From Chthoniobacterales bacterium (GTDB lineage: Bacteria > Verrucomicrobiota > Verrucomicrobiia > Chthoniobacterales > UBA10450), in the NCBI GenBank assembly GCA_013694595.1, contig JACDCC010000359.1, forward strand, positions 1 through 41,256: a stretch of 41,256 nucleotides of DNA, written 5' to 3'. The stretch's first letter is position 1. Every line of letters begins with the position of its first letter. The position numbers were made by a program, and so were the translations under genes. The notes under the pieces are model-generated. The model ran no database searches and was not told where the DNA came from. It was given only the letters and a program-made list of their open reading frames with translations. Positions 5,301 to 18,458 of the stretch are shown piece by piece.

Positions 5301-6638
5301 ATGCGTCCCAGCCATCTCGAAGATTACTACCAGCTGCTCCGCTTCCCGAGCGTTTCTACCGACGACAAACACAAAAAAGACGTCGCGAACTGCGCGCAAT
5401 GGCTGGTGAAGAAGCTCACCGCAATCGGGCTGGAGGCGAAGCTCATGCCTACGCCGGGCCACCCGGTGGTGTGGGCGAAGAACAAGCATCAAGCCGGACG
5501 CAAGACGGTGATGATTTACGGCCACTACGATGTGCAGCCGCCGGACCCGCTCGAGCTGTGGGATTCGCCGCCATTCGAGCCCGTCGAGAAGAATGGCTAC
5601 GTCTACGCCCGCGGCTCGACGGACAATAAAGGGCAGATCCTCGCCCACATCCTGGGGGTGCAGGAGACGATGGAAAAGGATGGCGAGCTGCCGGTGAACC
5701 TGCACTTCGTGATCGAAGGCGAAGAGGAGATCGGCAGCGGGAACCTCGGTCCGTTCCTGAAGCAAAATCTTGATGCATTGAAATGCGACGTGGTGGTGGT
5801 CTCCGATACCGGCATGGTGGCGAAGGGCGTGCCGACTTTGAGCTATGGGTTGCGCGGTGTGACGGCGCTCGAGATCAAGATCACCGGCGCGAAGATGGAT
5901 CTGCACTCCGGGATGTTCGGCGGTGCAGTGGCGAATCCGATCACCGCGCTCGCGCAGCTCCTTGCAACCGTGCACGACCGCGAAGGGCGGGTGGCGATCC
6001 CCGGCTTCTACGACAAGGTGAAGCCGCTCGAGGATTGGGAACGCGAGATGTGGCGGAAGCTGCCTCTCGACGGCGACAAGGAAATCCTCGGGGAGACCGG
6101 CTCACCGGATCTTTTCGGGGAGGCCGGCTACAGCACGCTGGAGAGGCTTTGGGCGCGGCCGACGGCGGAGATCAACGGCATCGGCGGCGGCTATCAGGGA
6201 CAGGGGACGAAGACGGTGATCGCGAGCCATGCGATGGCGAAGCTGACGTTCCGGCTGGTGCCGAACCAGGATGGGCCGGAAATTCTCGAGCTGGCGAAGA
6301 AACACCTGCGCGCCAACCTGCCGAAAGGCGTGACGATGGAGATTACCGACGGCCACAGCGGCCCGTGGTATCTTACGGATCCACATTCGGGCGACGGGCA
6401 GGCGGCACAGCGCGCCTTGCACGAGGCGTTCGACGGCAAAGAACCGGCGCTCATTCGCGAGGGTGGGAGCATCCCGATCACCTCCCAATTCCGCACCATC
6501 CTCGGTGTCGAAACGCTGCTCCTCGGCCTGGCGCTGTCGGACTGCCGCGCGCATTCGCCTAACGAGAACTTCCCGCTCGAGAACTTCGAGGCGGGCATTC
6601 GCCTGAACAAGGAAATCCTCAAGGAACTGGCGCGTTGA
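5301..6638 (+). CDS. M20-family zinc (di)peptidase
   Basis: A 445-residue cytosolic metallopeptidase of the M20 / carnosinase-like dipeptidase group. Visible metal-site motifs are YGHYDVQPP (His75), GSTDNKGQ (bridging Asp108), EGEEEIGS (catalytic and ligand Glu, about 141-143), a downstream SDTGM Asp, and the C-terminal CRAHSPNE His. The usual lid/dimerisation insert is present (KMDLHSGMFGG onward). I chose the ATG at 5301 (MRPSHLEDYY), since the open frame before it has no family similarity. Its TGA overlaps the TTG start of the NlpC/P60 gene, so the two are probably translationally coupled. The substrate cannot be read from sequence; supply of amino acids from peptides is the family role. 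Confidence 0.92.
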   Translation: MRPSHLEDYYQLLRFPSVSTDDKHKKDVANCAQWLVKKLTAIGLEAKLMPTPGHPVVWAKNKHQAGRKTVMIYGHYDVQPPDPLELWDSPPFEPVEKNGYVYARGSTDNKGQILAHILGVQETMEKDGELPVNLHFVIEGEEEIGSGNLGPFLKQNLDALKCDVVVVSDTGMVAKGVPTLSYGLRGVTALEIKITGAKMDLHSGMFGGAVANPITALAQLLATVHDREGRVAIPGFYDKVKPLEDWEREMWRKLPLDGDKEILGETGSPDLFGEAGYSTLERLWARPTAEINGIGGGYQGQGTKTVIASHAMAKLTFRLVPNQDGPEILELAKKHLRANLPKGVTMEITDGHSGPWYLTDPHSGDGQAAQRALHEAFDGKEPALIREGGSIPITSQFRTILGVETLLLGLALSDCRAHSPNENFPLENFEAGIRLNKEILKELAR

Positions 6639-7741
6639 AACGGCGCTTCTGTGGCTGGCTGCTTCCGATTACCTTGGCGTGTGCCGTGGCGTTCACGTTC
6701 GGCGTGGCCCCGGCGGAGGCGCAGTCGTTAGGCGACAAGATCAAGAGCGTCCTCAATCCCACCCCGCCGCCGAAGAAGCGGAAAAGCACCACAGCGACGA
6801 CGAAGAAGGCATCGCCGACGCCTTCTCCATCACCGAAAGCGAAGAGCTCTCCGTCGGCCACGCCGACTCCGACGCCAAAGGCAGGCGCGTCACCAAAAAC
6901 AAGCCCCTCGTCCAAGACAACGCCATCCCCGACACCGACCCCAGAGCCTTCGGTGACGCCATCGCCGACGAGCTCGCCATCCCCTTCGCCGAAGGGCAAA
7001 AAGAAGAACGGCTCGCCCTCGCCAACACCGTCGCCGAGCGCGACGCCAAGTCCCTCGCCCGAGGCGACGCCCACTCCGGATTCCTCCCCGACGGTCACTC
7101 CCGAAGCAAGTCCCTCTCCGGGCGAAACTCCGAAGCCGTCCGCATCGCCGGAAGCGAAAAAAGATCGGCCGGCAGGAGTCACGATCGCGCCTAACGAGTT
7201 AACAGATTTCGAGAGCTACTCGCCCGCGGTAAAGAAGCTCGTCGAGTCGTCGCTCGCGCTCGCCGGCCGCAATCTCTCCTACAAGTACGGCTCCGCCGAT
7301 CCCTCCGCCGGCGGGATGGATTGCTCGGGGTTCGTCTATTACATCCTGCGCGAGAGCGGCTTCACGGATGTGCCGCGCGATTCCAGTCAGCAATACGTCT
7401 GGGTGCGCAAAGCCGGCAAGTTCGAGGCCGTCGTCAGCAACAGCGATGACTCCTTCGAACTCGCGGAGCTGAAACCGGGCGATTTGCTTTTCTGGACCGG
7501 CACGTACGACATCAATCGCGATCCGCCGATCACCCACTCGATGATTTATCTCGGGCGCGAGAAGGGGAGTGGGCGGCGGATCATGGTAGGAGCGAGCGAT
7601 GGGCGTGTGTACCGCGATCAATCGCGCTACGGAGTCAGCATCTTCGACTTCAAGGTCTCGCGCTCGAAGCGGGCGGAGACGAGCGGTCGCCGCCCGACGT
7701 TTGTCGGCTACGGACGAATCCCGGGGCTGGGCGACGGTTGA
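6635..7741 (+). CDS. Secreted NlpC/P60 peptidoglycan endopeptidase with Pro/Ser/Thr linker
   Basis: A 368-residue protein. Residues 1-30 form a signal peptide ending AEAQS. About residues 48-180 are almost pure SPTPSPS-type low-complexity linker. About 205-355 form an NlpC/P60 cysteine peptidase with the catalytic Cys230 in GGMDCSGFVYY and the His in THSMIYLG. Such enzymes cut peptide stems of peptidoglycan, and the linker could span wall or periplasm (inference). The start is a TTG overlapping the upstream TGA (TTGA); it is preferred because the signal peptide begins there (MKRRFCGWLLPITL). The gene ends tail to tail with the small membrane-protein gene on the minus strand, overlapping it by 34 bp. 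Low-complexity DNA at about 6780-7165 gives many spurious reading frames. Confidence 0.9.
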   Translation: MKRRFCGWLLPITLACAVAFTFGVAPAEAQSLGDKIKSVLNPTPPPKKRKSTTATTKKASPTPSPSPKAKSSPSATPTPTPKAGASPKTSPSSKTTPSPTPTPEPSVTPSPTSSPSPSPKGKKKNGSPSPTPSPSATPSPSPEATPTPDSSPTVTPEASPSPGETPKPSASPEAKKDRPAGVTIAPNELTDFESYSPAVKKLVESSLALAGRNLSYKYGSADPSAGGMDCSGFVYYILRESGFTDVPRDSSQQYVWVRKAGKFEAVVSNSDDSFELAELKPGDLLFWTGTYDINRDPPITHSMIYLGREKGSGRRIMVGASDGRVYRDQSRYGVSIFDFKVSRSKRAETSGRRPTFVGYGRIPGLGDG

Positions 7742-9632: not shown

Positions 9633-10496
9633 CTAATCCGGGAGGCGCAGCATCGGATTGTTGAGCGCGCGCTCACGGTCGCCGGTCTTGTTGTAGTTCC
9701 AGTAGTCGACCTTCAGGTTGCGTTTCATCTTCAGGCGGCTGCCGTCGGCGGCTTTCCACTCGCGCAGCAAGTGCGGAGGATCGCGATCGAGGATGAACTC
9801 ATCGCCGCCACCTGCGTGTTGCACCTTCACGTTGATCGCCCGGCGATCGGCTGTGAAGGACACTTTCGCAGGCTGGAAAGTGAAGCTGTCCTTTTTGGAA
9901 TTGATCGCGCTGCCTGCGAGCTGGATCTCGAATTCCGTGCCCGGCTTCGTGAAATCGATCGTGCGAACGAGCCACGGCAGCTCGTCGTAGAAATGGCCGT
10001 TCGGCGGTGGCTTCACCTCTTCGGTGCCAGCGGCCATTCCATCCCAGTAGGTGCGGAAGTCGTAGGTGAACTGGTCCCCGTGCCGGCGCGCTTCCTTATA
10101 GGTGTTGCCGCAGCTGTCGTTGCTGGTGAGCGAGAATTTCAGCAGCTGTGAGTTGTCCACCCGCCAGAAGCTGGCGTGCATCTGCTGGTAAACGTAGAGG
10201 CCAGTCGGCACGTGCAGGATCTGATTCATCTTTAGCACCGCGATCGTGTCGGGCCGCATCGGTCCTTCCGGCTTCACGAGCTGTTTCGGGTCGAACGGCT
10301 CGCGCACCAGGATGTGCAGCACCTCGCACTGACGCGGCTCGCCGTAGCGTACGATCTCTGCTCCGTAGATGCTGAACTCGGCTTTGCCGTCTCCCCAGTA
10401 ATTGTTGTTCTGAAGCAGGGCAGGGGAGAACTGCGCGGCGGCGTTGCTGATGCCAATGGAGAGGAGGAACGCCAGCACGCTCGTGAATTTCAGCAT
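9633..10496 (-). CDS. Secreted protein of unknown function
   Basis: A 287-residue product starting MLKFTSVLAFLLSIGIS, a signal peptide with probable cleavage after NAAA. The mature part starts with an aromatic/Asn-rich stretch (ALLQNNNYWGDGKAEFSIYG) and contains a motif-like QQMHASFWRVD. I recognise no named family with certainty. The ATG at 10496 is favoured over one at 10517 because the latter lies inside the heptamer repeat and would precede the signal peptide with MNVGRFP. Confidence 0.75.
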   Translation of the reverse strand: MLKFTSVLAFLLSIGISNAAAQFSPALLQNNNYWGDGKAEFSIYGAEIVRYGEPRQCEVLHILVREPFDPKQLVKPEGPMRPDTIAVLKMNQILHVPTGLYVYQQMHASFWRVDNSQLLKFSLTSNDSCGNTYKEARRHGDQFTYDFRTYWDGMAAGTEEVKPPPNGHFYDELPWLVRTIDFTKPGTEFEIQLAGSAINSKKDSFTFQPAKVSFTADRRAINVKVQHAGGGDEFILDRDPPHLLREWKAADGSRLKMKRNLKVDYWNYNKTGDRERALNNPMLRLPD

Positions 10497-10501
10497 CGGG
10501 A

Positions 10502-10536
10502 AACGTCCAACGTTCAACGTTCAACGTCCAACGTTT
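10502..10536. repeat. Five tandem heptamers (AACGTYC)
   Basis: Five head-to-tail 7-mers: AACGTCC, AACGTTC, AACGTTC, AACGTCC, AACGTTT. The array begins 5 nt before the ATG of the minus-strand secreted protein, so it occupies its ribosome-binding region and adds an alternative in-frame ATG at 10517. No downstream gene is needed to explain it; it looks like a short satellite. Confidence 0.8.
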
Positions 10537-11620: not shown

Positions 11621-11795
11621 GGCGCGATGCTACCGGCCACCGATCAAACGTCAACGGCTGCGATCCAGCGTGCGTCGCCGGCCCCGCAGCAAAAATCTAT
11701 CCGCTCCTGGCCGCAACATGCGACCATTTTTCCCGCTCTTGACGAAATTCAAAATAAAGTCTCCCATCGAACCCGTGACTCGCCAGACCAAAAGC

Positions 11796-13358
11796 ATGAT
11801 GAAGAAGCTCGCCCTCGTGGGCGCCTTCATGCTGTTGGCCGGCAGCCTGGCGAAACATCGCGACGCGCGCAGCTCGCTGGCGCCGGAATCGCTAGCCCGC
11901 GCCATCGAGACGCGAAACACTCAGCTCCTAGAGCTTTGCTTCTCGGAGAAGATAGATGTGAACGCTCCCGGAGCGGACGGTCGCACGCCGTTGTTGATCG
12001 CCACGGCGCAGCAGGACGGCGCGATGGTGCAGCGCCTTCTCGAGGCCGGTGCTAAACCCGACATCACTGACCCGAACGGCACGACGCCGCTTCTCCTCGC
12101 GATTTCCCAGCAGGATGGCGCGATCGCGCAACGGCTTCTCGATCAAAAAGCAGACGTCAACATTGCTGATCGAAACGGCACGACACCGCTCCTGAAAGCC
12201 ACCATCGAGCATGACGCGACGACGGTGCAGCGACTGCTCGACGCGGGCGCAAATGTCGACCTGGCGGATCGCAGCGGGACAACGGCGGTGATGGTCGCGG
12301 CGACTTACGACAATGAAGAGTTGCTCCGCGCCTTGGCCTCACGATCATCAAATCTCGACGCCGCCGATGCCGGTGGGAGGACCGCAGCGCATCACGCGAT
12401 CGCTTCGAGAAACCAGGCTGCGGTGGAGCTACTCCTGCCGGCTATGGCGGAGATTCAGCCAGCCGTTGGCCCGACAGGCAATCTGGTGGAACTCGCGTGT
12501 GAGACCGGCGACGAGAGGATCATCGAAGCAGTTCTGAACCGCGCGCCTTCCACGCTCGAATGGACGCCGGGCACGTATCGTGCACTCGACGTCGCACTGA
12601 CAGCGAAGAACGGCCAGCTGACCAGGCTGCTCATCAGCCGTCACCCGTCACCTCCGATGAAGCCGGGCACGAACGTGCCGCTTCTCGCGCACGCGATGGT
12701 GGCCGATGATACCGCACTCGTGACCGCGCTGCTAACAGCCGGCGTGAATCCGAATGTGACGTTGCCGGTGCCACACGACAAAGCGTTCGTCGCCTCGATC
12801 AAGCCGCAGTACCTGCGCAGCTTCGCGATCAGCGATGAAGGAATTACGATGCTGATGATCGCCGCTGGTCTCGGGCGCGAGGATTATGTGCGTGCTTTAC
12901 TCGACGCCGGCGCGGAGCGAAATCGCTCCACGGTGAAACACAAGATGCTCGCGCTCTACTTCGCCGCGCGCACTGATAGCTGGCGTTGCATGCAGATGCT
13001 GCTCGGCAGAGGGCCGGCTCCCAGCGAGCTGCGCATCGAGATCTCGCTCGCGGCGCAACGCGCGTCCGTGATCAAGGACGGCACTCCGGTTTACCAAACG
13101 GCTATTTCGTCGGGGCGGACGGGCTTTGCGACGCCTTCCGGTGAGTTCGTCGTGACCGACAAAAAGCGCAGCCACAAGTCGACCATTTACCACGTGAACA
13201 TGCCCTTCTTCATGCGGCTGAATGGGCTGGACTTCGGCCTGCACCAGGGAGCCGTGCCGAACTATCCCGCATCCCACGGCTGCATCCGACTGCCGAGTGA
13301 AGCAGCGGTGAAGCTGTTCACAGAGATCCCGGTCGGCACGGTCGTGATGATCAACTAA
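11796..13358 (+). CDS. Ankyrin-repeat protein with C-terminal L,D-transpeptidase (YkuD) domain
   Basis: A 520-residue exported protein. Residues 1-20 are a signal peptide (MMKKLALVGAFMLLAGSLA). About 30-390 hold ankyrin repeats with the typical GxTPLLxA and LLxAGAxxxxxD pattern (DGRTPLLIATAQQDGAMVQ, NGTTPLLLAISQQDGAIAQ and others). The C-terminal part, from about 400, is a YkuD domain with HQGAVPNYPASHGCIRLPS; His494 and catalytic Cys496 are visible. L,D-transpeptidases cross-link peptidoglycan or attach proteins to it. The ankyrin part may dock a partner in the periplasm (inference). I chose the ATG at 11796 because it opens the signal peptide; a second ATG follows directly. No second envelope gene accompanies it. 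Confidence 0.9.
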   Translation: MMKKLALVGAFMLLAGSLAKHRDARSSLAPESLARAIETRNTQLLELCFSEKIDVNAPGADGRTPLLIATAQQDGAMVQRLLEAGAKPDITDPNGTTPLLLAISQQDGAIAQRLLDQKADVNIADRNGTTPLLKATIEHDATTVQRLLDAGANVDLADRSGTTAVMVAATYDNEELLRALASRSSNLDAADAGGRTAAHHAIASRNQAAVELLLPAMAEIQPAVGPTGNLVELACETGDERIIEAVLNRAPSTLEWTPGTYRALDVALTAKNGQLTRLLISRHPSPPMKPGTNVPLLAHAMVADDTALVTALLTAGVNPNVTLPVPHDKAFVASIKPQYLRSFAISDEGITMLMIAAGLGREDYVRALLDAGAERNRSTVKHKMLALYFAARTDSWRCMQMLLGRGPAPSELRIEISLAAQRASVIKDGTPVYQTAISSGRTGFATPSGEFVVTDKKRSHKSTIYHVNMPFFMRLNGLDFGLHQGAVPNYPASHGCIRLPSEAAVKLFTEIPVGTVVMIN

Positions 13359-14088: not shown

Positions 14089-14139
14089 GCCACGGTTAGT
14101 TGCACCGCGGAGGTGCGGCCGGTAAGCTGGCCGCTCTCG

Positions 14140-14931
14140 ATGGATCGCTCGCTCCTGATCGCCGCCACCGCCTGCTTTCTCGTGGCTGTCGTGCGGACGC
14201 TGCTCGCCTTGCGGGCCGGCGTATTCCGGCCTGGACGTTTCAACTTCGTCGCCATTGCTTGCGGTTTCCTACTACAGACGGCGTTTCTGTGGGTGAGAGG
14301 AAACGCAATCGGCCGCTGCCCGATTACAAACCTCTTCGAGGTGTTCACCTTCCTCGCGTGGTCGATTGTGCTCATCTACATGCTGGTCGGACCGGCCTAC
14401 CGTCTGTCGCTGATGGGCGCATTCACCGCCCCACTGGTGTTTGGGATCCAAGCCCTCTCCCTGGCAGCTCCTATCGACGTTCCGCACACCACGCGCGTGG
14501 AAGCGAATCCGTGGCTCGAGTTTCATGCTTCAATGTCGATGATCGCATATGGGGCGTTCGCCCTCGCCTGCATCGCGGGGCTGATGTACCTCATCCAGGA
14601 GCGGCAACTGAAAACGCGACAGCTGCACTCGGTCTTCCATCATCTGCCGCCGCTGCACGATCTGTTCACTGCGATCACGCGCTTGCTCTGGCTCGGGTTC
14701 CTGCTCTTCACCGCCGGATTGGTGAGCGGCTTCTTCACCGGGCAGCCGCTGCCGGTCTTAAAGATGACCTGCGCCGGGATCGTATGGCTGTTGTACGGCG
14801 CGATCCTGCACGGACGCCACCTGCGGAAGCTGGCGCCAAAACGTGTCGCCGCTCTTTGCATCGTGGCCTTTAGCGCCGCGGTCACCATCTTGTGGGGCAT
14901 CACCTTTGTGTCGGAAAGCCGCCCGCTCTGA
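14140..14931 (+). CDS. HemX / CcsA-type membrane protein (cytochrome c assembly-like)
   Basis: A 263-residue polytopic membrane protein with about eight hydrophobic segments. The segment with EFHASMSMIAYGAFALACI and YLIQERQLK matches the YpjD/HemX/CcsA family, whose members handle heme or lie next to heme genes. Its TGA overlaps the hemA ATG (TGATG), so coupling to tetrapyrrole synthesis is strong. Bacillus HemX lowers the level of HemA; such a role here is inference. I chose the ATG at 14140 (MDRSLLIAATACFLV); a GTG at 14113 is an alternative. Confidence 0.85.
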   Translation: MDRSLLIAATACFLVAVVRTLLALRAGVFRPGRFNFVAIACGFLLQTAFLWVRGNAIGRCPITNLFEVFTFLAWSIVLIYMLVGPAYRLSLMGAFTAPLVFGIQALSLAAPIDVPHTTRVEANPWLEFHASMSMIAYGAFALACIAGLMYLIQERQLKTRQLHSVFHHLPPLHDLFTAITRLLWLGFLLFTAGLVSGFFTGQPLPVLKMTCAGIVWLLYGAILHGRHLRKLAPKRVAALCIVAFSAAVTILWGITFVSESRPL

Positions 14932-16007
14932 TGCACCTCTTCTGCGTCGGCCTTAGCCATCACACTGCGAACGTGGAAACGCGCGAGCGTTATGGGACGC
15001 ACTCTGACGCCGATGCGCTCCGCACCGCTGCTGGCTGCGCCGAAGCGCTGCTGCTCACCACCTGTAACCGCGTGGAAGTTTACGGCGCATCAGAACAGCC
15101 AGTCTCCACGGACGCCATCGCACGGTCGCTCCTCCGCGAAACGGCGATTGCCACCGCCACGAACTCGCCGACATTCTACCGCTACGAAGCGGATGAATGC
15201 GTCCAGCATCTATTTCGCGTGGCCTGCGGTCTGGACTCGATGGTCCTCGGTGAGACGGAGATCCTGGGCCAGGCGAAGAAGGCTTATGAAGCCTCGCGTG
15301 CATCGGGCGCCGCGGGGCCCTGCCTGCACCGGCTCTTCCAACGCGCTTTTCGCGTGGCGAAACAAGTGCGCAGCCGCACCGACATCACGCGGGGTGCGGT
15401 TTCGGTCGGCTCAGTCGCGGTCGATCTCGCGGTGAAAATCTTCGGCGATCTCACCGATCGCAAGGTGCTGCTGCTCGGTGCCGGCGAGGCCAGCGAACGC
15501 ACCGCCCGGGCGCTGATCTCGCGTGGGGTGCGCGATCTCCGCGTCAGCAATCGCTCGCTGGAGCGGGCGGCGACTCTGGCCTCCGCGGTGGCGGGCGAAG
15601 CGGTGCCATTCGAGCACTGGCCGGCGCAATGCCGCATGATCGACATTCTGATCTCCTCCACGTCGGCCGAGGAGCCGTTGCTCACCGCGGATCTCCTTCG
15701 GCCGATGATCGAGGAGCGGATCGATCGGCCATTGTTCATCATTGATATCGCCGTGCCGCGCGACGTGGCGCCGGAGGTAAACAAAATGGAAGGCGTTTAC
15801 CTTTACGACATCGATTCGCTGCAATCGATCGCTGAGCAATCACTCGCCTTGCGCCGGCAACAGATCGCCGCCGGCGAACAGATCATCGCCGAGCACGTGA
15901 GCGACTTCGGCAGCTGGCTGCGCCGCGGGTCGATGACGGTCCGGCCGGCAGAGAGCATGCTGCATCGTCCGCTGACGGAGGCACAGTTGCGCACATCCGA
16001 ATCGTGA
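14931..16007 (+). CDS. hemA: Glutamyl-tRNA reductase, short form
   Basis: HemA reduces glutamyl-tRNA to glutamate-1-semialdehyde, the first step of the C5 route to 5-aminolevulinate. The catalytic Cys45 sits in LLTTCNRVEVYG. The substrate domain shows GLDSMVLGETEILGQAK, and the NADPH domain shows VLLLGAGEASERTARAL. At 358 residues the protein stops soon after HVSDFGSWLRRG, so much of the helical C-terminal dimerisation domain (present in proteins of about 420 residues such as E. coli HemA) is missing. It overlaps HemX upstream (TGATG) and hemC downstream (GTGA). The stop is in frame with no sign of a lost tail, because hemC starts immediately. Confidence 0.95.
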   Translation: MHLFCVGLSHHTANVETRERYGTHSDADALRTAAGCAEALLLTTCNRVEVYGASEQPVSTDAIARSLLRETAIATATNSPTFYRYEADECVQHLFRVACGLDSMVLGETEILGQAKKAYEASRASGAAGPCLHRLFQRAFRVAKQVRSRTDITRGAVSVGSVAVDLAVKIFGDLTDRKVLLLGAGEASERTARALISRGVRDLRVSNRSLERAATLASAVAGEAVPFEHWPAQCRMIDILISSTSAEEPLLTADLLRPMIEERIDRPLFIIDIAVPRDVAPEVNKMEGVYLYDIDSLQSIAEQSLALRRQQIAAGEQIIAEHVSDFGSWLRRGSMTVRPAESMLHRPLTEAQLRTSES

Positions 16008-16942
16008 GCCGGATTGTGCTCGGCACGCGCGGGAGCGATCTCGCGCGCGCGCAGACTTCGATGGTGGAAGCGGCGCTCCGCAGTGCGCATCCGGGCCTTC
16101 GTGTGGAGTGGAAAATCATCACCACGCGCGGCGACGAACGAGCGGCGCCGGTCGCTGAGCCGCTCGAGCGGGGCGCTGGACGGAAAGGACTTTTCACGAG
16201 CGAGATCGAACGCGCGTTGCTGGAAAAGCAGATCGACGTGGCGGTGCACAGCGCCAAAGACCTGCCGAGCGACGCCAGTGCCGGCCTGGAAATTTGCGCC
16301 GCCTTGCCGCGCGCCGCGGTGGAGGATGTCCTGGTGGCGAAGGAGGATCGCGACGCGGCCTCGCTGCCCATCGGAGCGACGATCGCGACGGGCAGTGTGC
16401 GTCGCCAGCATCAACTGCGCGGCTGGCGGAGCGACGTGACGATCGTGGATGTGCGCGGCAACGTCCCGACGCGATTGCGCAAACTCGCGGCCAACAACTG
16501 GCAGGGGATCATCCTCGCCCGTGCGGGACTTGAGCGGCTCGGATTTGACTGCTCGGGCAGGGAACTCCGGTTCGAGGAGAACGCATTCACAGTCAGCGTC
16601 CTCCCGCGCAATCGGTTTCTGCCGGCTGGCGGCCAGGGGATCGTCGCACTGCAGGTGCGTGCCGATGACACTGAAACGAAGCCGCTCGCCGCGAGTGTAA
16701 GCCACCCCGAAACGCTCCTCTGCCTGCGCGCGGAACGTGAGTTTCTCCGGCTGCTGCAAGGCGATTGCGGAACGCCGGTGGGCGTGCTCGCGACGATTCA
16801 ATCTGGAATGATGGAGATGCGCGCGGAGGTTTTCGACGAGCATGGTGGAGAGCGACGCACGGGCAGCTTGCGCAAACTCTTGCAGGAGGCGGAGCCGGAA
16901 GAAATCGGCGCGGAACTTTTAGAGCAAATCCATGGGCGATAA
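16004..16942 (+). CDS. hemC: Porphobilinogen deaminase (hydroxymethylbilane synthase)
   Basis: HemC joins four porphobilinogens into hydroxymethylbilane. The 312-residue product begins MSRIVLGTRGSDLARAQ, has the catalytic HSAKDLP motif, and has Cys255 in LLQGDCGTPVG for the dipyrromethane cofactor. The start is the GTG that overlaps the hemA TGA; it gives the usual family N-terminus. The 3' end overlaps cobA-hemD by 11 nt. Confidence 0.97.
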   Translation: MSRIVLGTRGSDLARAQTSMVEAALRSAHPGLRVEWKIITTRGDERAAPVAEPLERGAGRKGLFTSEIERALLEKQIDVAVHSAKDLPSDASAGLEICAALPRAAVEDVLVAKEDRDAASLPIGATIATGSVRRQHQLRGWRSDVTIVDVRGNVPTRLRKLAANNWQGIILARAGLERLGFDCSGRELRFEENAFTVSVLPRNRFLPAGGQGIVALQVRADDTETKPLAASVSHPETLLCLRAEREFLRLLQGDCGTPVGVLATIQSGMMEMRAEVFDEHGGERRTGSLRKLLQEAEPEEIGAELLEQIHGR

Positions 16943-18458
16943 AAAAATGGCAGCGAAGTGTTCACTCGTCGGCGCCGGGCCGGGCGATCTCGGGCTGGTG
17001 ACGCTGCGCGCGAAGCAGTGCATCGAAGAGGCGGAGGTGATCGTCTACGATTACCTCTGCAATCCCGAGATGCTGAAGTGGGCGCCTGAGAGCGCGGAGA
17101 AGATCTATGCGGGGAAGAAAGCCGGTGAGCACACGCTGACGCAGGAGGGCATCAACGCGCTGCTGGTCGAGAAGGCCAATGAGGGAAGACGTGTCGTGCG
17201 TTTGAAAGGGGGCGATCCGTTCGTCTTCGGTCGCGGTGGAGAGGAAGCGCAGGCGCTCGCGGCGGCCGGAGTGCCGTTCGAAGTGGTGCCGGGCGTCACG
17301 TCCGCGATTGCGGGGCCGGCCTATGCCGGGATCCCGATCACGCATCGCGGGAGCAATTCACACGTCACATTTTTCACCGGCCACGAGGATCCGGCGAAGA
17401 TGGAAAGCTCGCTTGATTTCGCCGCGCTCGCGCAGCTCGGCGGCACCCAGGTGATGCTCATGGGCGTGGAGCGGATCGGCGCCATTTCGAAGAAGATGCT
17501 CGCGAGCGGAATGCGCCCTGAGCTTCCGGTGGCGCTAATCCGCTGGGCGACCACGGGGCGCCAGGAGACGCTGGTCGGCACGTTGTCCGACATCGCTCAG
17601 CGCGTAGCTGCGACTGGTTTCGAAGCCCCCGCGGTGGCGGTTTTCGGCGACGTAGTGTCGCTGCGGGATGAGCTGAATTGGTTCGAGCAACGGCCGCTCG
17701 CCGGCAAACGCGTCGTCGTCACGCGCACCAGAGCGCAGGCTGGGGTTCTGAGCGAGCAGTTACGCGTGCTGGGTGCGGATGTGCTCGAATTGCCGACCAT
17801 CCGGATCGAGCCGCCGACAGACCTCCGCGCGTTCGCCGAGCTGGTGCAGGATGCGCACGCTTACGACTGGATTGTGTTCACAAGCCCGAACGGCGTGAAC
17901 TCGTTCTTCGACCTTTTCTACAAGCTCTACGATGATGCGCGGGAGATTGGCGCCGCCAGGATTGCGGCAATCGGGCCGGCGACAGCGCAGCGGGTGAAAG
18001 ATTTCCGCCTGCATGTGGACCTGCAGCCGGACGAGTACGTAGCGGAGGCAGTCGTCCGGGAATTCAAGAAGGAAGGTGGAGTGGAAAATCTTCGGATTCT
18101 CCTCGCTCGTGCGGAAAAGGCGCGGGACGTGCTTCCAAGAGAGCTCTCTGCCATGGGCGCTATTGTCGACGACGGAATTGCATACCGAACGGTCCCCGAG
18201 ACCCGCGACGATAACGGCGCGCGCCGCCGGCTCTCGGAGGAAGGCGCCGACCTGATCACTTTCACGAGCTCCTCGACGGTCGAGAATTACATGGCGCTCG
18301 GGCTTCCATGGCCGAGAGGCATGCAAGTCGCGAGCATTGGGCCCGTGACTTCAAAGACGGCGCGGGACCTGGGCCTGACGGTAAACGTCGAGGCCCGACG
18401 GCACGACATACCCGGCCTGGTGGAGGCGGTTCGCAAATTTTACGGAACGAAATCCTGA
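16932..18458 (+). CDS. Uroporphyrinogen-III C-methyltransferase / uroporphyrinogen-III synthase fusion
   Basis: A 508-residue bifunctional protein. Residues 1 to about 255 are a SUMT (CobA) domain: VGAGPGDLGLVTLRAKQCI, RLKGGDPFVFGRGGEEA and VVPGVTSAIAGPAYAGIPIT are all present. About 256-508 is HemD (RVVVTRTRAQAGVLSEQLR; FTSPNGVNSFF; FTSSSTVENY). HemD closes hydroxymethylbilane to uroporphyrinogen III, and CobA methylates it toward siroheme/cobalamin. So one chain makes and diverts the branch-point intermediate. The ATG at 16932 overlaps the hemC end. The stop is 2 nt before grpE. hemB is not in this cluster. Confidence 0.95.
   Translation: MGDKKMAAKCSLVGAGPGDLGLVTLRAKQCIEEAEVIVYDYLCNPEMLKWAPESAEKIYAGKKAGEHTLTQEGINALLVEKANEGRRVVRLKGGDPFVFGRGGEEAQALAAAGVPFEVVPGVTSAIAGPAYAGIPITHRGSNSHVTFFTGHEDPAKMESSLDFAALAQLGGTQVMLMGVERIGAISKKMLASGMRPELPVALIRWATTGRQETLVGTLSDIAQRVAATGFEAPAVAVFGDVVSLRDELNWFEQRPLAGKRVVVTRTRAQAGVLSEQLRVLGADVLELPTIRIEPPTDLRAFAELVQDAHAYDWIVFTSPNGVNSFFDLFYKLYDDAREIGAARIAAIGPATAQRVKDFRLHVDLQPDEYVAEAVVREFKKEGGVENLRILLARAEKARDVLPRELSAMGAIVDDGIAYRTVPETRDDNGARRRLSEEGADLITFTSSSTVENYMALGLPWPRGMQVASIGPVTSKTARDLGLTVNVEARRHDIPGLVEAVRKFYGTKS

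Follow-up and report, generated by a model that had tools for sequence, protein, structure and literature searches.

An open reading frame in the window (the whole stretch of 41,256 nucleotides that was analyzed) encodes a member of a known enzyme family, the L,D-transpeptidases, with an accessory domain for which we found no report: an ankyrin solenoid. The host of this ankyrin-YkuD gene is a soil Verrucomicrobiota bacterium (a Chthoniobacterales MAG). Sequence comparisons indicate that the fusion is old and common to Chthoniobacterales and other members of the class. The combination of ankyrin repeats with a YkuD domain and an intact active site in one chain, as proposed by the sequence-only reading, was confirmed by Pfam matches to Ank_2 and YkuD above their cut-offs and by the motif SHGCIR, and a hydrophobic N-terminus makes the chain a probably exported or membrane-anchored one.

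The gene and its predicted product

The reading frame runs on the forward strand from an ATG to a stop codon (11796-13358, +; 520 aa), in agreement with the coordinates and frame given earlier. Its true start is probably the GTG at 11775, as suggested by comparison with the orthologue L008, which is 80% identical. L008 has ATT TTA aligned at ATG 11796 and hence no ATG, and an in-frame GTG seven codons upstream of that position is common to the window gene and L008. Because L008 lacks the ATG and has the same GTG, the upstream start is more likely, and the probable coding sequence is 11775..13358 (+), encoding 527 aa. The dN/dS of the window gene against L008 was 0.115 overall and less than 0.13 in every part (0.123 for residues 30-290, 0.097 for residues 291-410 and 0.075 for YkuD). 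Since this ratio is low in all parts, the ankyrin and YkuD halves are both under selection and a chance open reading frame is excluded.

A hydropathy scan of the N-terminus found a 15-residue hydrophobic stretch preceded by basic residues (residues 5-19, 11808..11852, +; predicted helix 3-17). This segment had been called a signal peptide, and its hydrophobic character after basic residues stands, although a cleaved signal peptide and an uncleaved signal anchor both fit. A hydrophobic N-terminal segment was also found in most family members by the same kind of scan, in which a few loci with doubtful places or reading frames (e.g. L062, L072, L114, L119) were excluded as evidence. Members within the order have the hydrophobic segment and gave two lipobox pattern matches, both judged doubtful. 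Among 19 class members outside Chthoniobacterales, a lipobox was present in 11 by eye and in 9 by pattern. Anchoring therefore recurs by two routes, with a hydrophobic segment in some members and a lipobox in others. From these sequence features, we infer that the ankyrin-YkuD protein is periplasmic.

The ankyrin solenoid (residues 32-402, 11889..13001, +) comprises approximately 11 helical hairpins in a predicted structure with a mean pLDDT of 88.8, and Pfam Ank_2 scored 128.2 bits against a curated cut-off of 27.3. Its last three repeats (residues 296-402, 12681..13001, +) are kept in the core of all aligned members, as seen in a 34-sequence core alignment and in the core model. Between repeats nine and ten lies an insertion (residues 321-348, 12756..12839, +) that is modeled as a short helical hairpin (helices 329-334 and 338-346), and its sequence shows moderate conservation in near relatives and weak conservation across the wider core alignment. 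Two alignments were used: A1, containing the 20 best loci of the first relative search, and A2, containing 34 chosen loci; "invariant" refers to those rows. The repeats are joined to YkuD without a long linker, and the joint contains Pro407, which is invariant in both alignments. The core model, consisting of the last three repeats and YkuD, had a pLDDT of 94.2 and a pTM of 0.89 over both domains. This pTM suggests that the repeats and YkuD are placed rigidly relative to each other, and the last repeats seem to be integral to the enzyme. No solved chain spanning both ankyrin and YkuD was among the matches listed for the core model in the structure search. A search with the whole model returned mainly designed and eukaryotic ankyrins and gave no clue to function. 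In its own genome (91.85% complete), Ank_2 matched in three places, all within the ankyrin-YkuD reading frame. With this as the sole ankyrin gene found, the genome is not of the ankyrin-rich type known from intracellular bacteria.

The catalytic domain, of the YkuD L,D-transpeptidase type (residues 412-519, 13029..13352, +), was identified with PF03734 (69.5 bits against a cut-off of 23.4, 6.2e-19, residues 413-519) and by structural match, since the core model aligned with 4xvo and 4jmn at a Z of 18.0 (rmsd 1.5-1.6 Å, 113 residues), as expected of a YkuD fold. The signature of the YkuD family is a catalytic Cys in (S/T)HGC, an upstream His and a following Arg or Asn. The window protein carries this signature as the catalytic-type His483 (13242..13244, +) and the active-site motif SHGCIR (Ser493-Arg498, 13272..13289, +), with Cys496 read from the sequence as the nucleophile. 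His483 and SHGCIR are identical in 20/20 aligned family orthologues in A1, and S-H-G-C-x-R with the upstream His is kept in 34/34 core sequences in A2. The Cys is also kept in all 19 class members outside the order, two of which have an altered motif, SAGC (L118) and SRGC (L120). Both of these retain the upstream His despite the changed SHGC, and their activity is possibly altered or lost.

Among named models, the catalytic domain was closest to NCBIfam NF004785 (PRK06132.1-2, "hypothetical protein"; 1.7e-30, residues 413-519), with a score of 106.4 that is below its cut-off of 169. The genome contains 13 YkuD matches; ten span nearly the full Pfam model, and that of the ankyrin-YkuD gene is the shortest of the ten (321 bases). 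A 1-3 cross-linking enzyme of the LdtGo2 type was considered and rejected, since Pfam YkuD matches the window protein strongly and the LdtGo2-type enzymes are described as having a divergent YkuD-like domain with a poor match to that model (PMC10727944).

In the core model, loop I has 12 residues, loop II has 6 and loop III has 5 without a helix. Loop II connects strands 449-461 and 468-475, and both the predicted model and the sequence spacing indicate that there is no extended lid. The Tyr-to-His spacing is 18-19 in the window protein compared to 40-48 in four paralogues from its own genome, which have the same signature and about 22-30 extra residues at loop II. A total of 66 spacing values was collected from the ankyrin-fused members, eight non-ankyrin short-loop relatives and three duplicate copies (L099-L101): 62 were 18-19, one was 21 and three were without a measurement. 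According to the published descriptions, LdtMt2 and Ldtfm have a lid made by an extended loop II, and this loop is short in Csd6 and DpaA (PMC4599014, PMC10653827). Loop II of B. subtilis YkuD is short according to the Csd6 paper (PMC4599014), whereas the DpaA paper groups this enzyme with the lidded transpeptidases (PMC10653827); because the two sources disagree, loop II alone decides little. In the same sources, L,D-carboxypeptidases and DpaA differ from transpeptidases in that their loop I is longer and their loop III contains a helix (PMC10653827, PMC4599014). The longer loop I and helical loop III of the Csd6/Pgp2/DpaA type are absent from the model of the window protein, whose loops, as predicted, are L,D-transpeptidase-like and lidless.

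Distribution and gene neighborhood

A scan of named genomes, by a method that detects close relatives only, returned two loci; the closest named relatives are two MAGs of Chthoniobacterales, AVDCRST_MAG42 at 80% and MGR_bin234, whose best segment reaches 49%. Some match was found in 57 of 58 genomes (own included), mostly to YkuD, with long matches in a subset. Within its own genus, long matches were found in four of seven genomes, again with its own included. A profile of 20 full-length members matched 86 of the 197 genomes of the order at E 1e-30, four of them over the YkuD part only (G007, G039, G066, G100) and one over the N-terminal repeats only (G174). A core profile, made from the last three repeats and YkuD of 34 sequences, matched 51 of 387 phylum genomes at E 1e-20. 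At least 200 of its 252 positions were covered in 22 of these genomes, of which 3 belong to the order and 19 to other parts of the class. The other 29, among them every listed member of the genus g47 and the three listed genomes outside the class, matched mainly over YkuD. One genus of the class with small genomes (g47, 2.2-3.3 Mb) has a short-loop YkuD and no ankyrin-fused core among the matches listed, which could reflect a loss. Outside the phylum, the search covered a plasmid collection, in which 25 of 72,556 records matched, none of them with a single place that covers at least 80% of the core query. The plasmid homologues are mostly annotated as L,D-transpeptidases.

Ten members, chosen from seven families, were searched with Pfam. 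YkuD was above its cut-off in all 10, and at least one ankyrin model was above its cut-off in nine; the best ankyrin score for L077 was 25.4, slightly below the cut-off of 27.3. In a tree built from YkuD alone, all 59 ankyrin-fused rows fell on one side of a branch with support 99/98. The other side held 16 rows, namely eight non-fused Verrucomicrobiota proteins, four paralogues from the window's own genome and four plasmid proteins; L133 was left out. With a short alignment of 117 columns and long branches for some rows, the inner forks of the tree were not relied on. The simplest reading of these sequence data is one family with a single fusion, followed by gain and loss of repeats. Two ankyrin-free YkuD proteins (L122:1003-2016 and L128:982-2385) appear by eye to have a second, degenerate copy of the N-terminal part of YkuD without the Cys motif, and they group on the tree with plasmid-borne proteobacterial and acidobacterial L,D-transpeptidases.

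The unit that is constant across the family consists of the last three repeats, the joint and YkuD, and the number of N-terminal repeats and the type of anchor vary. The distance from the hydrophobic segment to SHGC varies between about 206 and 612 residues, and the shortest members (e.g. L069, L077) have just three repeats directly after the hydrophobic segment. The sequence-only reading had called this architecture unusual, unless it turned out to be widespread and already characterized. The profile searches found it widespread in the class rather than a one-off; a full-text search of the open-licence literature, on the other hand, found no description of an ankyrin-YkuD fusion, so the architecture is common but, in the literature searched, not seen to be characterized.

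The neighbors of the gene in the window are conserved as a set only in its nearest relative, L098, and single genes recur elsewhere (e.g. the CobA-HemD type in L085). Because the set is kept only in L098, no operon partner can be named, and the ankyrin-YkuD gene is a stand-alone gene. Downstream, an apparent haem-biosynthesis run was recognized by eye (14113-18458, +), with a cytochrome-c-assembly/HemX-like membrane protein, HemA, HemC and a fusion of the CobA-HemD type. This run adjoins the ankyrin gene as a set only in L098. The window also contains an NlpC/P60 cell-wall hydrolase (6635-7741, +; 42.9 bits against a cut-off of 23) with a hydrophobic N-terminus and a long low-complexity spacer rich in Pro, Ser, Thr and Lys. 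Another gene (9633-10517, -) encodes a protein of 294 aa that apparently begins with a signal peptide and that matched neither Pfam nor NCBIfam models at E 0.01.

Possible roles of the ankyrin repeats

We propose that the protein is a membrane-tethered periplasmic L,D-transpeptidase that is held and positioned by an ankyrin arm, and we consider the chances that this is correct to be about even. The N-terminus would hold the protein in the membrane, and the ankyrin solenoid would serve as a stiff arm of lineage-specific length that sets the site of action in the periplasm. The last three repeats would be locked rigidly to the catalytic domain. As the nucleophile, Cys496 would target the L-centre of diaminopimelate in the stem peptide of a donor tetrapeptide and release D-Ala, and the acyl group would then be passed to an acceptor, either an envelope protein or another stem. 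The free surface of the arm may dock a lineage-specific partner. This proposal is supported by the YkuD match above its cut-off, the kept catalytic residues, the fold match, the transpeptidase-like loops, the pTM of the core model, the two recurring routes of anchoring, the constant core behind a stretch of variable length and the stand-alone position of the gene. Counting against it, L118 and L120, two of the 19 members from the class beyond Chthoniobacterales, have lost the motif His.

We infer transpeptidation rather than hydrolysis, and likewise the arm role of the solenoid. Reach is not the function in all members, because the L069 and L077 types have almost no arm. It is also conceivable, but doubtful, that the three constant repeats are part of the active enzyme and replace the lid, as one wall of the donor/acceptor groove or a gate over it, with the ankyrin surface setting substrate choice or activity. 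If this were true, a cis form of the Bdellovibrio ankyrin/wall-enzyme pairing would have become a regular enzyme of the envelope across much of a class.

Alternatively, the ankyrin stack may act as an internal brake or lid on the lidless YkuD cleft, covering or gating it and opening only on binding of a partner or peptidoglycan. We regard this as rather unlikely, and yet control by ankyrins is a serious rival because of the precedent of Bd3460 and Bd1180/Bd1181. The Bdellovibrio ankyrin protein Bd3460 is reported to block two DD-endopeptidases, and its repeats 1-3 cover the active-site cleft of one of them, Bd3459, in an inhibited complex (PMC4686830). The same paper predicts a pairing between the ankyrin protein Bd1180 and the L,D-transpeptidase Bd1181, which are encoded in one operon (PMC4686830). 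A brake would also fit the 6-residue loop II of the window protein and the three repeats that are always fused to YkuD. The inhibitor in Bdellovibrio, however, is a separate protein, and a lidless cleft occurs without ankyrins both in B. subtilis YkuD, as described in PMC4599014, and in the eight short-loop YkuD relatives without ankyrins within the phylum.

YkuD domains can also be carboxypeptidases or Lpp-amidases, according to PMC8649774 and PMC10653827, and the protein might therefore be a trimming enzyme, either an L,D-carboxypeptidase or a protein-releasing amidase. Its ankyrins would then position it like the NTF2 domain of Campylobacter Pgp2, an accessory domain with a pocket approximately 40 Å from the active site that is described as able to guide the action of a YkuD-type enzyme on the sacculus (PMC8038945). 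A short loop II, which is common to Csd6, DpaA and the window protein, is consistent with trimming, but the short loop I and helix-free loop III of the model are unlike those of the carboxypeptidases and DpaA, and we find this explanation decidedly unlikely.

Ankyrins are generally binding scaffolds, and recruitment of a partner by the repeats, as suggested by the sequence-only reading, is possible. That they recruit one specific envelope partner conserved across the family would surprise us. Conservation in the last two repeats was compared between framework positions and those that we take to be ligand-facing from the numbering of the ankyrin consensus. The ligand-facing positions nearly match the framework among near relatives (0.53 vs 0.60 in A1) but fall below it in the wider core (0.37 vs 0.52 in A2). 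The repeat number is also highly variable, and there is no conserved neighbor gene. Because the ligand-facing positions are less conserved and the shortest members have only three repeats, the data do not readily suggest one conserved partner.

Finally, it is highly improbable that the protein is a secreted effector that uses an L,D-transpeptidase warhead against bacteria or a host. Ankyrins and L,D-transpeptidase domains are both among proposed effectors in PMC8213781, and an L,D-transpeptidase-related family of T6SS effectors appears in the references of PMC8262851, but the proteins have an N-terminal anchor or lipobox, lack an adjacent conserved immunity or secretion gene and form one old clade, and no other ankyrin gene was found in the genome.

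According to PMC11527210, L,D-transpeptidases form 3-3 cross-links and are able to attach outer-membrane proteins to the cell wall. For the question of how these enzymes are placed and controlled, a family armed with ankyrins offers a tractable case of possible steering by accessory repeats. The family is old, under selection and found in a class of environmental bacteria, and as a lineage-specific wall enzyme it provides a practical entry to the Verrucomicrobiota envelope.

Comparison with known systems

The window protein resembles the YkuD L,D-transpeptidases B. subtilis YkuD, LdtMt1/LdtMt2 and Ldtfm in its catalytic fold (Z up to 18.0) and in its His, SHGC and Arg residues. It shares a short loop II with B. 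subtilis YkuD as described in PMC4599014 and, unlike LdtMt2 and Ldtfm, it is without a long lid. It differs from all the YkuD L,D-transpeptidases compared in its accessory domain, an ankyrin solenoid directly joined to the catalytic domain. It is also distinct from the NF004785-type and other short-loop YkuD proteins, since the non-fused relatives on the tree, including the plasmid proteins, fall outside the ankyrin-fused clade. Like Pgp2 and Csd6, it has a YkuD-type domain and a periplasmic location, which is predicted here; the published accounts give Pgp2 an accessory domain and Csd6 no lid. Its accessory fold is ankyrin, unlike the NTF2 domain of Pgp2, and its model has neither a long loop I nor a helical loop III.

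The closest parallel to the ankyrins is with Bd3460 and Bd1180/Bd1181, which, as far as PMC4686830 describes them, likewise involve exported ankyrins that act on peptidoglycan cross-link enzymes or are encoded beside them, with export being predicted in our case. In Bdellovibrio, the ankyrin and the enzyme are separate proteins and Bd3460 is inhibitory, whereas the window protein is one chain. A separate exported ankyrin beside the gene of its target enzyme, as for the self-protection ankyrin Bd3460, was not found here; the ankyrin is fused and has no conserved neighbor. By analogy, the two lineages point the same way, to an ankyrin and an L,D-transpeptidase that would act together in both. 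The fusion in the window would be independent support for the pairing of Bd1180 with Bd1181 that was predicted from their operon in Bdellovibrio.
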